Assembly (NCBI GenBank): GCA_020438215.1
Contig: JAGQUX010000026.1
Location: 1-33,598 of the forward strand
DNA length: 33,598 nucleotides
DNA from: Armatimonadota bacterium
Lineage (GTDB): Bacteria > Armatimonadota > Fimbriimonadia > Fimbriimonadales > Fimbriimonadaceae
Direction: 5' to 3'
The notes beneath the pieces are model-generated. The model did not search any database. It was not told the origin of the DNA and saw nothing but the letters and a program-made list of their open reading frames with translations. Made by a program: the position numbers and the translations under genes. Below are positions 3,437-11,844 of the stretch, piece by piece (the stretch's first letter is position 1; each line of letters begins with the position of its first letter).

Positions 3437-6400
3437 ATGTACAAGCACTCGCGCATCACCAACGACCGCATTCGCCGATTCATCGAATTTGAACTCCGAG
3501 AAACCATTGTTGACAAAATCAGTGCTGTCGAAGCGGAGCTTTTGATCAGCGACGAACCGAGCGAAGCCGCCGCACGCAAAAGCAAAAACTGGAAGAAAGT
3601 CCAGCCCGGCGACAAGTGGGGGCCATCGTATCAGTTTGGTTGGTACCGCGTACAAGGCAAAGTGCCAACCGCTGAACCCGGCTTTTCCGTCGCCCTGATG
3701 TACGGCAAAACTGAATTCGCGTGGCAAGGCTGGTGGGGACCAGATATGGTCGAAGCGACCATTTTTGAAGACGGTTCTCCCATCGCCGCGTTGGATTTTG
3801 CCCACCCGTATTACCGCCTCGATGCCAACCGCAAATCCATCGACTTTCTTCTTCAAACCTACGCGCGAAACAAAGAAACCACCGTCGATCGGCCCGAGCA
3901 ACCCCGCACCCCTGAACCGGAAGATTTCAAAGGATTTTGGTTCTGCCGACTGGATGAAGAAAAACTTCAACTCTTCTTTGATTGCGAGTTTGCCTTTGAT
4001 CTGATGAAAGCGCACGAGGAGGACGATGCCATCTTCGTTTACATTCAGCGCGCACTCAACGAAGTCTGCAACACCTATGATGCCGACAATCGCAAAACCT
4101 GGGCGAAGTGCCGCAAGATCATTCAGTCCACGCTAGGAGAACTGAACAGCGAGCTTCATCATACGATCACGCCAGTGGGACACGCCCACCTGGATACGGC
4201 GTGGCTCTGGCCACTCAGCGTGACTCACCTCAAGATGGCCCATACCAGTGCCGCTCAACTCGAGCTGATGGATCGGTATCCCGAGCACGTTTTTGCTCAT
4301 AGCCAAGCCAGCCAATACGACTGGATCGAGCGCGAGCATCCAGAACTATTCAAGCGCATCCAGCGGCAAGTCAAGCGCGGGCAGTGGGAAGTCGTCGGAT
4401 CCATGTGGGTAGAAGCTGACTGTAACCTCACCGGGGCAGAATCTCTGATCCGGCAATTCTTGTACGGCAAACGGTACTTCCGCCAAAAATTCGGCGTGGA
4501 AACTGTGGATATGTGGCTCCCCGATGTCTTCGGATATTGCGCGGCGTTGCCACAGATTCTTGAGAAGTTCAGCATCAACCACTTTTTGACGCAGAAGATG
4601 AGCTGGAACTCGACCAACAAAATCCCCCATAACACCTTTTGGTGGCAAGGGATTGATGGCACTCGGGTTTGGGCGCACTTCCCTCCAGCGGACACGTACG
4701 TTCATTCCTGCGCACCAAGCGACATCATCAAAAGCGTCAAGAACCACCGCGACAAAGCACGCTCCGACCGGTCGCTCCTTCTCTTTGGATTTGGAGATGG
4801 CGGCGGCGGCCCAACCGAATGGCACCTCGAACGATTGCGACGGGCGCGCACGGCTCCCGGAATGCCGGAACTAGAAAAGAAAGAAACGGCCAAGAGCTTC
4901 TTTGAACGAGCCAGAGAAGAATCCCGCGACCTGATGACCTGGCGAGGCGAACTGTATCTAGAATTCCACCGGGGCACCTACACCAGCCAGGCAAAAAACA
5001 AGCGGTTCAACCGCCAATGTGAGTTTCTGCTTCGCGATGCCGAATACCTTAACGTATTCCGCGATGATTACGCCAAGGTGTACCCCCAAGCAGAACTGGA
5101 AGACGCATGGAAGCTCGTTCTCCTCAACCAGTTCCACGACATCATTCCCGGCTCATCGGTGCGGGAAGTGTACGAGGATAGCGACAAAGACTACGCTGAA
5201 GTCATTTCCATTGCCGATAAGCACATCGAATCGGCGATGAAGCGCATCTCCAGCCAGATGACCTTGCCCGAGCCGGACAAATCCGAAAAATCGTACGAGC
5301 CGCTGGCGATCTTCCACCACTCTGATGTAGCGAGCGAAGTCAAGATGCCTTGGTCTGGCAAGAAAGTGCCGACCAGCCTGAAATGCGGAGACGAATCTCT
5401 CCCTGTTCAGCTCGTTGAAGAGGGCGGTGAGAAGTCGCTAATCTTTGAAACGCCAAACAACGCCATGCGATCCGTCGCCGTGGCGAGCCTCAGCGACGAA
5501 GAACCGCTCGACACAACCCGACTCAAAGTTGCGGCGCGACGCATGGAAAACGATGAGTTCGTCGTCAAATTCGACGCAAACGGAAACATCACCTCTATCC
5601 AAACGCTAGACGATGATCCAACCGAGTTCATCGAAGCAGGCAAGCTCGCCAATCTCTTCCAAATCATGGATGACAAGCCCAACTTCTGGGATGCATGGGA
5701 TACCGAGCTATTCGCCCAAGAAACCATCCAAGATTTGGTGAAAAGCGAATCCTTCGAGGTTGTAGAAAAAGGGCCGGTGCGCGTTGCCGTTGAACTCGTC
5801 AAAAAGTTTGGCAAGAGCACCATCCGCCAGCGGATTAGCCTTGGCCCGACGCCGGGTATCCGATTCGATACCGAAGTGGATTGGCAAGAAGACCACAAGT
5901 TCCTGAAAGTGGCATTCCCGCTGAACGTGAACTCCGATCGCGCTACCTACGAAATCCAATACGGGCACGTCGAACGCCCGACCCACCGCAACACGAGTTG
6001 GGATCAAGCTCGGTTCGAAGTGTGCGCCCAAAAGTGGGCCGACCTCAGCGAAGGTGGACACGGCGTCGCTCTGATCAACACCGGGAAGTACGGTTACGAT
6101 TGCCACGAAAATGTCTTGCGGCTTTCGCTTCTCCGCGCTCCCAAAGCTCCAGATCCAATCTGCGACCGAGGCGTTCACAAGTTCAGCTATGTCCTACTTC
6201 CGCACTTCGATCAAGTGCAGCACAGCATGGTCATCCAATCAGCGTATGCGATCAATGCTGAGCCGCGAGTGTGCACAGCATCGCCAAAAGCTGGCGATGT
6301 GATGGAAGTTCCGCCCTATGTGGATGTAGACACGCGCAGCATCACCATCGAATGTGTGAAAAAAGCGGAGGACAGTAACCGCCGTGTTGTGCGTATGTAT

Positions 6401-6571
6401 GAATGTCTGAACACGCGCGGGATGGCAACGCTCTCATCGGCAATGCCGATCAAGCGGGCGTGGATCACTGATCTTGAAGAGAATGTGATCTCCGAAGCGG
6501 AAGTGGTCGATGGAATGGTGACATTTGGCTTCACGCCGTTTGAAATCATCACGATGAAGCTGGAAATGTGA
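3437..6571 (+). CDS. Alpha-mannosidase, glycoside hydrolase family 38 (cytosolic type)
   Basis: 1044 residues, the size of the MAN2C1/Ams1 subgroup of GH38, with no signal peptide, so probably cytoplasmic. A long N-terminal region is followed by the zinc-dependent catalytic domain: GHAHLDTAWLW with zinc ligands H251 and D253, WLPDVFGY with nucleophile and zinc ligand D363, and NQFHDIIPGSS with ligand H567. The C-terminal half (about 640-1044) has the mannosidase beta-sandwich pattern. The enzyme removes non-reducing alpha-mannose residues from oligosaccharides, probably in glycan salvage; no transporter or other glycosidase is beside it. The divergent promoter region shared with dprA is only 50 nt. 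A 102-aa gene follows after 46 nt and may be co-transcribed. Confidence 0.93.
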   Translation: MYKHSRITNDRIRRFIEFELRETIVDKISAVEAELLISDEPSEAAARKSKNWKKVQPGDKWGPSYQFGWYRVQGKVPTAEPGFSVALMYGKTEFAWQGWWGPDMVEATIFEDGSPIAALDFAHPYYRLDANRKSIDFLLQTYARNKETTVDRPEQPRTPEPEDFKGFWFCRLDEEKLQLFFDCEFAFDLMKAHEEDDAIFVYIQRALNEVCNTYDADNRKTWAKCRKIIQSTLGELNSELHHTITPVGHAHLDTAWLWPLSVTHLKMAHTSAAQLELMDRYPEHVFAHSQASQYDWIEREHPELFKRIQRQVKRGQWEVVGSMWVEADCNLTGAESLIRQFLYGKRYFRQKFGVETVDMWLPDVFGYCAALPQILEKFSINHFLTQKMSWNSTNKIPHNTFWWQGIDGTRVWAHFPPADTYVHSCAPSDIIKSVKNHRDKARSDRSLLLFGFGDGGGGPTEWHLERLRRARTAPGMPELEKKETAKSFFERAREESRDLMTWRGELYLEFHRGTYTSQAKNKRFNRQCEFLLRDAEYLNVFRDDYAKVYPQAELEDAWKLVLLNQFHDIIPGSSVREVYEDSDKDYAEVISIADKHIESAMKRISSQMTLPEPDKSEKSYEPLAIFHHSDVASEVKMPWSGKKVPTSLKCGDESLPVQLVEEGGEKSLIFETPNNAMRSVAVASLSDEEPLDTTRLKVAARRMENDEFVVKFDANGNITSIQTLDDDPTEFIEAGKLANLFQIMDDKPNFWDAWDTELFAQETIQDLVKSESFEVVEKGPVRVAVELVKKFGKSTIRQRISLGPTPGIRFDTEVDWQEDHKFLKVAFPLNVNSDRATYEIQYGHVERPTHRNTSWDQARFEVCAQKWADLSEGGHGVALINTGKYGYDCHENVLRLSLLRAPKAPDPICDRGVHKFSYVLLPHFDQVQHSMVIQSAYAINAEPRVCTASPKAGDVMEVPPYVDVDTRSITIECVKKAEDSNRRVVRMYECLNTRGMATLSSAMPIKRAWITDLEENVISEAEVVDGMVTFGFTPFEIITMKLEM

Positions 6572-6617: not shown

Positions 6618-6926
6618 ATGAGCGAGAACATGGAGAAATTCCGTCACCTGGACGGGAACAACGCCGTGATTGAAAAGGAGTTCATCCATATCACTTTTCA
6701 GCACGGCGACCCGAATGAAGTCGGAGTCAATGGGTGCCGCATTGAGGACATTCTGGATATCGTAACGGACAAGATTCTGGATTTCCAGGGACGGGATCTC
6801 AATTGCCCGGAAAACGCGACCGCTCTATATCACCTTGATCTTGCCCGTGAAGCGTTGATACTCCGACGGCGACGGCGTGAGCAACAGGGTGTGATCGGCA
6901 CCCGCTCAAAGCACAAAAGCGAGTAA
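6618..6926 (+). CDS. Small protein of a phage-type family (possible Acb2/Tad1-like hairpin domain)
   Basis: 102 residues, charged, no membrane segment. The core contains ITFQHGDPNEVGVNGCRIED (residues 25-44), a helix with DIVTDKILDFQG, a CPENATALYHLDLAREAL segment and an Arg-rich end RRRRREQQGVIGT. From memory this order (FQ-G...EVGVNG..nEd, DRL..FQ.G, C.eNA.AL..L..A...L..Rt..R..rGV.GT) is the hallmark of a very common small phage protein family, often labelled hypothetical or wrongly as ABC transporter ATPase, and recently grouped with Acb2/Tad1 hairpin proteins that sequester cyclic-nucleotide immune signals. I infer the relation; I could not run a profile search. It follows the mannosidase gene and its stop directly abuts the stop of the response regulator. 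No other phage genes are near. Confidence 0.7.
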   Translation: MSENMEKFRHLDGNNAVIEKEFIHITFQHGDPNEVGVNGCRIEDILDIVTDKILDFQGRDLNCPENATALYHLDLAREALILRRRRREQQGVIGTRSKHKSE

Positions 6927-7595
6927 TCAGCCTACGAACTTGTAACCCACGCCCCGCACGGTCACGAGTCGTGTGGGGTTGCTGGGGTCTTCTTCAATGC
7001 GCTCCCGAATCCAGCGCACATGCACATCCACTGTTCGCGCAGAGACAAACGCATCCTGCCCCCAAACCCGGTCGAGCAACGCTTCGCGAGCGAACACCTG
7101 CCCGCGGTTCTTCGCCATAAAGTGAAGCAGAGCATATTCCTTCGGCGAAAGCTGAATCTCCTTCTCATCCAGCCACGCTTCGTGCGACTTGGGATCAATT
7201 TTCAAATTGCCCGTTTCAATGAGTTCGTTAGGAATTTCGCCGGTAAAGCGTCGCAAGACGGATTTCACGCGAGCAGCCAGTTCGGCGAGGCTAAACGGCT
7301 TGGTGACATAGTCATCACCTAGCTCAAGACCCTGAAGGCGGTCTTCCTCCGCAGACTTCGCGGTCATGAAAATAATCGGGACTTGGCTCTCGCGGCGGAT
7401 CGCTTGGGCAAGCTCCATCCCGCTTCGCTGAGGCAACATCACGTCAAGCAAAAGGAGATCGGGCTTGACGAGGCGATACAGGCGCATCGCTTCTTCGGCA
7501 GACCCGGCAGTGAAGACCGAATAGCCTTCACGCCGGAGTTTGCGTTCAACAGTTTCTAAAATTGTAGGTTCGTCGTCAACAACTAATATTTTCAT
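6927..7595 (-). CDS. OmpR/PhoB-family response regulator
   Basis: 222 residues. The receiver domain (1-115) has the acidic pair D7/D8, phosphoacceptor D51 in LLLLDVMLP, T78 in FMTAKS and K99 in DYVTKPFS. The C-terminal winged-helix DNA-binding domain (about 128-222) has LSPKEYALLHFMAKN, the DRVWG segment, a RTVDVHVRWIR recognition helix and the terminal VRGVGYKF hairpin. It is expected to dimerise when phosphorylated and bind promoter DNA. No histidine kinase is adjacent, so it is an orphan within this window. Its ATG overlaps the stop of the upstream gene as ATGA, so the two are probably translated together. Confidence 0.95.
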   Translation of the reverse strand: MKILVVDDEPTILETVERKLRREGYSVFTAGSAEEAMRLYRLVKPDLLLLDVMLPQRSGMELAQAIRRESQVPIIFMTAKSAEEDRLQGLELGDDYVTKPFSLAELAARVKSVLRRFTGEIPNELIETGNLKIDPKSHEAWLDEKEIQLSPKEYALLHFMAKNRGQVFAREALLDRVWGQDAFVSARTVDVHVRWIRERIEEDPSNPTRLVTVRGVGYKFVG

Positions 7596-8719
7596 GAGGT
7601 GGCGATGATCTCGACATTGGCTCGCGGCACCACCACCGTATCGCCATTGTCAAGAACCGCTTCCAGAACCCTCACTTCTGCGCCCGACTCAACTGTTTGC
7701 AGTTGAGCTGGGAGCCCTGTGACTTTGCCCAATCGGCCAAAGTACGGTTCACGGATGATCCGAATCGGTGTCCCCGCAGTCAGAGCGTTTCCAGAGTGTT
7801 CTGGTACCTGCTCTTCTGCCGAGTGCGCGATTGGACAGATCAATTCCGGTCGAATGACACCAGCACGGATTTGTGTTGCCCCGTTCAAACTTGCTCGACG
7901 TCCTTCAAGAGTCTTCAGCAATTTGAAAGTGCGCTCCGCCATGTTCAGCTGACCAAAGCCTTCGGTGACAACCAGAGTGGTTTCCACCTCTTCTTGACCA
8001 GTGATCGCCACGCCAATGTCGTATCCCAGGAGCTCTTGCAAGTCCACATCGCGGACAGCACCCACGATCAGTCCGACTGCGCCTACTTCGTTCAGTTTTC
8101 GCAGTGCGGCCAAAGTGACACCCGATCCACCGATCAGGATCTTGCCTGCATCCGAAGCAGAAACATGGCTCTCATCAACAACTTGGTCTGGGCTATCAAC
8201 CGCAACGCGAACATCGCCATTACGCTCTCCGCCAATCCCAAAGATGCCCTGAACCATTGCCCCGCGTGTTTCGACAATTGCGCCTTCCTCCGGGATCACC
8301 TCTTTGATGGTGCCCGAGACGTAAGCAGAAATGTCGACTGGGATGGATGGCTCCCGAATCAAGATGTTTCCAGTCACTTCCGAGATTGACTCCACCACAC
8401 CGGTGTATTCACTCTCGACTTGCGCTTTGAAGAACTTGCCAAACAGTCCCTTCGTTTCCGCAACAATCTGACCTTTTTCAATCGGGTCATCGACTTTCAA
8501 TGAAGTCAGACCCGGAGCTTCCTTCGGTTCCACCCCTAGCTTTTCAGCAAGACGAATTGTCTGCAAAAGGCCAGGGAGCATTGCCCGAGCAACAACGGTA
8601 TCGTGGCTTACCTCATCGCCTTGGTTCACCAAAACCTCACCTTTAATTGGAAGGCGTCGGATGCGTTCGACGACGGTATCGCCACTGACTGTCAGACCGG
8701 GTGTATATGCGCTGCCCAA
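7592..8719 (-). CDS. Conserved protein of unknown function with C-terminal KOW-like segment
   Basis: 375 residues, no signal peptide. The N-terminus (YTPGLTVSGDTVVERIRRLP, then GEVLVNQGDEVSHDTVVAR and KGQIVAET) has two short beta motifs like the halves of a biotinyl/lipoyl barrel. A central region has Gly-rich GIFGIGGERNGDV and IGGSGVTLAALRK segments and the conserved SLNGATQIRAGVIRPE. The last 60 residues (GTPIRIIREPYFGRLGKVTGLP onward) look like a KOW/SH3 barrel. I recall close relatives with the same MGxAYTPGLKV start in Firmicutes, Deinococcus and Thermotogae, but know of no assigned function. The start is TTG at 8719, supported by AGGAG at 9 nt spacing. It is the first gene of an ATGA-coupled pair with the response regulator. 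Confidence 0.8.
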   Translation of the reverse strand: MGSAYTPGLTVSGDTVVERIRRLPIKGEVLVNQGDEVSHDTVVARAMLPGLLQTIRLAEKLGVEPKEAPGLTSLKVDDPIEKGQIVAETKGLFGKFFKAQVESEYTGVVESISEVTGNILIREPSIPVDISAYVSGTIKEVIPEEGAIVETRGAMVQGIFGIGGERNGDVRVAVDSPDQVVDESHVSASDAGKILIGGSGVTLAALRKLNEVGAVGLIVGAVRDVDLQELLGYDIGVAITGQEEVETTLVVTEGFGQLNMAERTFKLLKTLEGRRASLNGATQIRAGVIRPELICPIAHSAEEQVPEHSGNALTAGTPIRIIREPYFGRLGKVTGLPAQLQTVESGAEVRVLEAVLDNGDTVVVPRANVEIIATS

Positions 8720-10005: not shown

Positions 10006-11844
10006 ATGCGCATCGCTGTATTGTCATTCAACGCCACCGACGGCACCCGTGAATCCATCGCCCGTCAAATGGCCAACTACGCCGCTGAAATTGCCAACGG
10101 GGCCTCCGAGGCAGAAATCGGCACCATGATCCCGATGCGCCAAGAAATGGTGGATGGGGTTCCCCAGGTTCATCTCGTCACCCCAGGCAACGCGCTCAAC
10201 GAGCCCGAGTTCGTCAAAGAATTTATGTCCCAAGGCCAATTCGACGTTTTCGTTGATGGTCTTCTGGACGAGAACCAAGCCGGTGGCGGAAAACTCACCG
10301 TTCGATTTTTTAAGGACAACCCGGAATCTCCCGCCGAGACCAAAGATTTTGGCTACCTCGCCGGTGGCGAATTTGAAGTCATTCGCGGTTTGATCGGGAT
10401 GCTCCTCTCTCAAGGTGGCGGGCAACTTCCCGAAGGCGCAGAAGAAGATGAAAACCTCTTCGGCACCAGCAATTCTCAAGCATTTTTGAAATTCCTGGAA
10501 GGCTACGATGTCATGCAATACATCGAGCGAGCCCAAGGGATGGTCGGCCCGGACTTTGATCCGCAACCGGCAATGGACTGCCTGAACCAAGCTATTGAAG
10601 CCGATAGAGATTGGGAAGCTCCGTTCCTGGTTCTCACCCAGCTTTGCCGCATGTGCGTGCAATTCCGCATCGGGAATGCACAGATGGTCGAGGGAGCTTT
10701 GGAGGGCCTCACGAAATCCGAGCCCGAAGATCCGCGTGGCTGGTTTGCTCTCGGTGAGTTCTACGCCAACATGGGTAACCACGAAAAAGCGAGCGAAACA
10801 ATGGAAAGAGCCGCTCAGCTTGATCCAAATGAACCCGCTTTTCTTCACCGTTTGGCGATGAGTCAACTCGCACTGGGGATGCCAGTGAACGCGGAGCGAA
10901 ACCTCCGCAAAGCGGCAGAACTAGAAGATGGCGAAGACCTCCCAAGCCTTGAACTGCTCAGCAAAGTACTTGGTCAAACCGGTCGCCCGCACGAAGTGCC
11001 TGAGCTTTGGCACGATGTTGTTCGACAAAACCCGCAGTCGGGTCGAGCGCACGCGCGCTATGCCATTTCGCTCTTCCAAGCGAATCGACGAGAAGACGGA
11101 ATCAAAGCATTTGAAGAGGCGCTCACGACCGTTGATGAGAACGCTTGGGTCAAGCGGTACTACGCCCCGGTTCTGAGCGAAGAAGGTGATGTCGATCGCG
11201 CGATGGACTTCTACGAAGACTGCATTGACATGGCCCCAGCCGATGTTCCGCTCTTGCTGGAGTACGCACGGACACTCGACAAGGCCAGCCGCCAGTTCGA
11301 AATTCCTGAAGTCCTCAAAAATGTCTTGAAGGCAAACCCAGATCAAAACACCGCCGCTCAAACCCAAGCATGGCTACTTGAGCTTGAGCAACCGAAGCGC
11401 GCTGAAGTCGTAAAAGCTGCTGGCGAAAAGGCCGAGCAAGGTGATTTTGATGGTGCAATCAAAGACCTTAAGCCGCTCACCAATTGGTTAGGCGATTACT
11501 GGAAGCTGTGGATGGTCTTGGCGACTGCTTACAACCAAACCGGCGAGCACACCGAAGCGGAAGCCGCGGCACGACGCATCCTCGAGATGTTCCCATCCTG
11601 CGAACCGGCATATGTTGAACTCAACAATGCGCTCGGCGGACAAGGAAAGAACGAAGAAGCATACGCGCTCATGCAGATTGCTCTTGGTAACATGCCGCAG
11701 TCTCTGCCCGTTGCTCTCAGCACGGCGGTCGCGGCAAAGCGCGTTGGTCGAGAAGACGAAGCTCGCAATCTTGCTCAGCAAATCCGGCAAGTTGCTGGCG
11801 AGCAGGAAGGGCTCTCAGAAATCCTTGCTGAGCTTGAAAAATAA
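10006..11844 (+). CDS. Tetratricopeptide-repeat protein of unknown role
   Basis: 612 residues from the ATG at 10006. An in-frame ATG at 9931 would add 25 residues of Pro/Ser-rich sequence with no Shine-Dalgarno and would read through the putative promoter box. The N-terminal about 150 residues (MRIAVLSFNATDG..., then FDVFVDGLLDENQ, KLTVRFFKDN) form an alpha/beta domain I do not recognise. The rest is a TPR solenoid, for example ARGWFALGEFYANMGN-type repeats (GWFALGEFYANMGNHEKASE), RLAMSQLALGMPVNAERNL, AISLFQANRREDGIKAFEEA and ATAYNQTGEHTEAEAAARR. There is no signal peptide, so it is probably a cytoplasmic scaffold. It follows tdh closely and converges with ilvC, 2 nt separating the stops. Confidence 0.85.
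   Translation: MRIAVLSFNATDGTRESIARQMANYAAEIANGASEAEIGTMIPMRQEMVDGVPQVHLVTPGNALNEPEFVKEFMSQGQFDVFVDGLLDENQAGGGKLTVRFFKDNPESPAETKDFGYLAGGEFEVIRGLIGMLLSQGGGQLPEGAEEDENLFGTSNSQAFLKFLEGYDVMQYIERAQGMVGPDFDPQPAMDCLNQAIEADRDWEAPFLVLTQLCRMCVQFRIGNAQMVEGALEGLTKSEPEDPRGWFALGEFYANMGNHEKASETMERAAQLDPNEPAFLHRLAMSQLALGMPVNAERNLRKAAELEDGEDLPSLELLSKVLGQTGRPHEVPELWHDVVRQNPQSGRAHARYAISLFQANRREDGIKAFEEALTTVDENAWVKRYYAPVLSEEGDVDRAMDFYEDCIDMAPADVPLLLEYARTLDKASRQFEIPEVLKNVLKANPDQNTAAQTQAWLLELEQPKRAEVVKAAGEKAEQGDFDGAIKDLKPLTNWLGDYWKLWMVLATAYNQTGEHTEAEAAARRILEMFPSCEPAYVELNNALGGQGKNEEAYALMQIALGNMPQSLPVALSTAVAAKRVGREDEARNLAQQIRQVAGEQEGLSEILAELEK

Follow-up and report, generated by a model that had tools for sequence, protein, structure and literature searches.

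The question raised by this locus is whether a protein of phage type can be a permanent component of a bacterial chromosome and, if so, what it would do there. The window analyzed here, i.e. the whole stretch of 33,598 nucleotides, contains a small open reading frame whose product was characterized, in a preliminary description, as a lone phage-type protein possibly related to Acb2 and Tad1 and located among housekeeping genes. The motif order named there is present exactly in the 102-residue product, whose translation carries FQHGDPNEVGVNGCRIED, DKILDFQG, CPENATALYHL, an arginine-rich run and GVIGT. The gene and its immediate neighbors are arranged as follows:

3437..6571, forward strand: GH38 alpha-mannosidase, 46 bp upstream of copy A, a conserved neighbor in several genera
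6618..6926, forward strand: host-encoded Tad1-like protein (copy A), 102 amino acids plus stop, ATG start
6927..7595, reverse strand: PhoB/OmpR-type response regulator, convergent and abutting the end of copy A, a neighbor in part of the family

The genes that could be typed between 2442 and 11844 code for a DprA-like protein, the GH38 alpha-mannosidase, the PhoB-type response regulator, a zinc dehydrogenase and a TPR protein, and MutL and RuvC, read from their translations, are found upstream of copy A. No phage or defense gene was found among these typed flanks, and within this interval the housekeeping and regulatory setting is thus as first described. In the genus, the gene order is mutL-ruvC-dprA-GH38-copy A-response regulator-(RnfC_N-like)-dehydrogenase-TPR, and it is partly kept in several other genera; the RnfC_N-like gene (7592-8719, reverse strand), whose product has only a weak match to this domain, is a conserved neighbor that accompanies the response regulator. 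In the rest of the family the Tad1-like gene has other neighbors, among which no phage hallmark was recognized, nor was any defense gene recognized in the neighborhoods examined. Thus, the question whether chromosomal orthologs keep this neighborhood has a divided answer: the arrangement is common to several genera, while not all of the family has the response regulator next to the gene, and this speaks against the two forming a dedicated pair. The search for an operon partner in about 6 kb around 41 loci returned unrelated genes, mostly of housekeeping type, that follow the lineage, and no conserved partner indicating a pathway was found among them; a promoter and terminator scan was uninformative.

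The protein is not a lone one. A second gene, copy B, with 72% identity to copy A, lies in the same genome, that of a member of the Fimbriimonadaceae within the Armatimonadota (2.64 Mb, 99% complete), on contig C47, at positions 10311-10616 of the reverse strand. Two copies are present in seven of the eight genomes of the genus and at least one in all eight. Copy B is always preceded by a gene for a small helical protein (MSFVSQIMRKASIVERS...; C47, 10667-10957, reverse strand; L002, 1857-2147), which in this genome starts off the same strand at a distance of about 50 bp upstream; the protein is present throughout the genus (8/8 genomes), was not found in any other genome of the family, and is a possible operon partner of copy B.

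The nearest characterized relatives are proteins of the Tad1 group (PDB 7uav, 7uaw, 8smd and 8kbb to 8kbh; phage SPG24 Tad1; phiKZ gp184). With the single sequence of copy A, the solved Thoeris anti-defense 1 chains and phiKZ gp184 are matched at about 1e-6 to 1e-5 (phmmer, Tad1 1.4e-6); with a profile of the family the E-values for the same proteins fall to between 1e-9 and 1e-12 (best Tad1 match, 1.4e-12), and the alignment of the host family with phage Tad1 proteins by hhalign gives an E-value of 6e-22 over 73 columns with 40% identity. The phage-built profile phrog_2428 of the PHROG collection recognizes copy A (E-value 1.7e-16), as do two other PHROGs. Searches of Pfam and NCBIfam with copy A gave no match, and the profile check proposed at the outset turned out negative, since PF24729 (Acb2_Tad1_hairpin), which covers the Tad1 hairpin homologous to that of the host protein, does not match any of 23 host members even at an E-value of 10. 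PF24729 does match phage SPG24 Tad1 (6e-8), and it misses the C-terminal domain of a protein of the Burkholderia jumbo phage FLC9 that BLAST pairs with copy A; as this homolog escapes too, narrowness of the model is a likelier cause of the missing Pfam match than absence of kinship. In the FLC9 protein (L037, 2224-3240), the Tad1-type hairpin domain is fused to a cyclophilin-type prolyl isomerase.

As for the two relatives originally proposed, the kinship to Tad1 is upheld by sequence profiles, profile-profile comparison and predicted fold, whereas for Acb2 there is a weak likeness at the fold level and T4 Acb2 (Vs.4) has no sequence match to the host family (hhalign probability 0.2). It is close to certain that copy A belongs by descent to the Tad1 superfamily.

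Two template-free AlphaFold2 models of copy A, with pLDDT values of 73 and 79, together with the alignments, divide the protein into the following elements, all on the forward strand:

6618..6662: N-terminal tail MSENMEKFRHLDGNN, residues 1-15, near-invariant in most Fimbriimonadales copies, lost in genus g6 and modeled with low confidence
6663..6698: predicted beta hairpin, residues 16-27 (strands 16-20 and 23-27), aligning with part of the Tad1 N-terminal sheet
6696..6734: FQxG...G-NG loop, residues 27-39, with Q28, G30, G36 and G39 invariant
6741..6788: predicted helix 1 of the hairpin, residues 42-57 (42-57/58 across both models)
6783..6815: inter-helix loop FQ....C.EN, residues 56-66, aligning with the region of Tad1 F82 and N92
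6807..6887: predicted helix 2, residues 64-90 (64-89/90 across both models), with R83 and R87
6888..6923: C-terminal tail GVIGTRSKHKSE, residues 91-102, with H99 invariant in host copies and GVEGT not strictly kept

The structure comparison suggested in the preliminary description placed Tad1 as the top match for both models. With the first model, Foldseek ranks 1 to 20 are all Tad1 (best E-value 8e-5), and VIA gives Tad1 a Z-score of 9.3 (92 residues), the best unrelated entry thereafter scoring 6.2. With the second, of higher pLDDT, Tad1 is again first, at 7.9 against 6.4, a gap with which the structural evidence alone would be modest; matches in the viral library BFVD include named Acb2/Tad1 hairpin proteins. 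The predicted fold thus agrees with the sequence evidence for Tad1 kinship. Both host protein and Tad1 have the C-terminal helical hairpin and the FQxG...NG...EN...R...R...G core, but the N-terminus of the host protein is shorter, with two predicted strands compared with four in Tad1 (residues 1-12 are modeled with low confidence), its GVEGT tail is relaxed, and a host-specific H99 and C-tail are added. With Acb2 (T4 Vs.4, PDB 7uq2) it shares two long, in the host protein predicted, antiparallel helices, a weak structural likeness (VIA, Z 5.6-6.0 over 56-60 residues); Acb2, however, has a short N-terminal helix where the host protein has a beta hairpin in the model.

Residue conservation was counted in 55 host proteins and 15 proteins from phages and mobile elements. 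Q28, G30, G36, G39, R83 and R87 are invariant in all of both groups, and N66 is present in 55/55 and 13/15, respectively; N38, C63, E65, N66 and A76 do not vary among the host proteins and are common in phages. Position 90 is always Q in the hosts and mostly R in phages, and at position 56 the listed host proteins have F, Y or H. In the family-profile alignment, F56, N66 and R83 coincide with or adjoin F82, N92 and R109 of Tad1, which in CbTad1 we take to be ligand contacts. The C-terminal tail of Tad1 is reported in a review to be part of the pocket region (PMC12043709), and it is relaxed in the host copies, so that ligand specificity may have changed from that of phage Tad1. The N-terminal MSENMEKFR is conserved in most genera; divergent copies from genus g6 and its neighbors (L074, L075, L078-L082, L105, L106) lack this start and end in RTED..DFSATGA, and the two lineage tails never co-occur.

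The gene was found in 69 of 291 Armatimonadota genomes, of which 63 (out of 85) belong to the Fimbriimonadaceae, five to a sister family in the order and one is a marginal match; no convincing match outside the two families was found among the 291 genomes of the phylum. The phage-built PHROG profile gives the same picture, with matches in 67 genomes, all in the two families having the gene, and none outside them among the 291 genomes or in 14 controls. A scan of viral contigs with the family alignment revealed no relative, a result that is limited by the pattern used and does not prove absence, and a plasmid search returned one weak Halomonas match near an integrase, which is probably prophage-like. 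In phylogenetic analysis, the 55 distinct host proteins group in a single clade (support 100/98), separate from 15 homologs of phages and mobile elements; the tree does not single out any phage group as the nearest.

Selection on the gene is strongly purifying. The dN/dS ratio is 0.055-0.059 in the four pairs with computable dS, values that are rough since dS is near 2 in three of them, and in the remaining pairs synonymous sites are saturated and only 9-27% of nonsynonymous sites differ. Several lineages have lost the gene, which is hence not essential to the family. Phylogeny, synteny and purifying selection all back the domestication suggested earlier: the host gene is fixed in chromosomes outside any prophage, selected and vertically inherited. 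Tad1 anti-defense proteins are phage- or prophage-encoded, while the host gene is chromosomal, order-wide, syntenic and placed in a separate clade; since its product is not viral, it is no Thoeris anti-defense protein as usually understood. The literature searched, in which structure papers were incompletely covered, yielded no previous description of a Tad1 fixed in a host chromosome.

Tad1 binds gcADPR and cyclic di- and trinucleotides, with weak binding of cAA (reviewed in PMC12043709), and the distribution of the enzymes that produce such signals was therefore compared with that of the gene. DAC, the c-di-AMP cyclase, is present in 83 of 85 family genomes and in all 70 of good quality. GGDEF proteins are found in 81/85, and c-di-GMP was discarded as an obligatory ligand, as no GGDEF protein was found in the near-complete genomes G088, G089 and G096, which keep the gene. 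SMODS CD-NTases occur in 13/85 family genomes and TIR domains in 43/85, each in two of the eight genomes of the genus; the Cas10 palm domain is found in 10/85 and is absent from this genome, so that a type III CRISPR signal was rejected too. These last three occur too rarely to account for a gene that is spread across the order.

The best explanation, to which we give an even chance, is that the protein is a host buffer or receptor for a cyclic nucleotide. A single ancient event would have fixed a Tad1-family gene in a chromosome ancestral to the Fimbriimonadales, and the gene would have been inherited vertically thereafter, with two copies in this genus. The Tad1 architecture of a small beta element and a helical hairpin has most likely been kept; the hairpin would pack to form dimers and hexamers, with the pockets lying between the protomers, and the protein would probably still bind a cyclic nucleotide, acting in the host as buffer or receptor for a signal of the cell's own. 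A sponge- or receptor-like working is likely but unproven. The most economical candidate ligand would be c-di-AMP, because its cyclase is in every good-quality genome of the family; DAC is, however, equally universal in the 22 family genomes without the Tad1-like gene, which makes this evidence permissive only, and weak. The weak binding of cAA by Tad1, the relaxed GVEGT tail, the loss of the gene in several lineages and the failure to find a conserved operon partner also count against this explanation.

A different cellular use would be self-protection, with the protein as a constitutive, low-capacity sink that holds the host's own CBASS or Thoeris signals, which arrive horizontally, at levels too low to kill, as phage Tad1 sequesters the signals of both systems (PMC12043709). 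Every one of the 13 family genomes that encode a SMODS CD-NTase also has the gene (13 of 63 carriers against none of 22 non-carriers; Fisher p 0.018, uncorrected for phylogeny and genome size), but within mixed genera the probability of such an association by chance rises to about 0.10, TIR domains show no association (32/63 carriers, 11/22 non-carriers, p 1.0), and the genus keeps the gene in all eight genomes with CD-NTase and TIR each in two; we regard this sink as unlikely. The same low probability is assigned to an exapted scaffold, in which the fold would serve assembly or protein-protein contacts and nucleotide binding would be gone: the lineage-specific tails (N-terminal MSENMEKFR in most genera, C-terminal RTED..DFSATGA in g6) and the genus-specific helical protein ahead of copy B would fit it, while the residues shared with phages, R83 and R87 included, are invariant in 55/55 host proteins.

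Hosts are also reported to run decoy nucleotide circuits, named Panoptes, that respond to sponges (PMC12657218, PMC12657230), and the protein could accordingly stand on the defense side, with the cell employing its own sponge either as a decoy or within a guard circuit by which nucleotide tricks of phages are sensed or starved; we consider this improbable, given that no defense gene was recognized in the neighborhoods examined and that the inheritance is vertical and housekeeping-like, differently from most defense genes. Least credible by far is a recent, passive prophage remnant on its way out: the protein is recognizably of a phage family, but order-wide spread, a single clade, synteny across genera, a dN/dS of about 0.06 and two maintained copies all contradict it.

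Returning to the buffer or receptor, nucleotide sponges have been described as viral tools, and here a strictly conserved, duplicated, chromosomal version extends across an order of soil and water bacteria. It offers an example from nature of a sponge that belongs to no virus, by which the origin of the fold and cellular cyclic-nucleotide buffering become testable, and it indicates that a Tad1-like match in a bacterial genome is no proof of a prophage. That the order turned a viral Tad1 sponge into a second-messenger protein, or that the phage family itself came from this order as its cellular origin, has in our estimate slightly less than an even chance; the transfer may have run in either direction, and either way the protein, with a cellular second-messenger role possibly linked to c-di-AMP, would be the first cellular Tad1 member with a physiological function.

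Two further observations concern the surroundings of related genes. In this genome, a SMODS CD-NTase fragment is found at the end of contig C78 (4166-4489; L139), near an XRE/ImmA-IrrE-type protein and an AAA ATPase, both read from translations, and this contig end is possibly a CBASS or defense island. In Herelleviridae phages (L108, L124, L128, L131), the Tad1 gene is located directly upstream of a RecA/UvsX-type recombinase.
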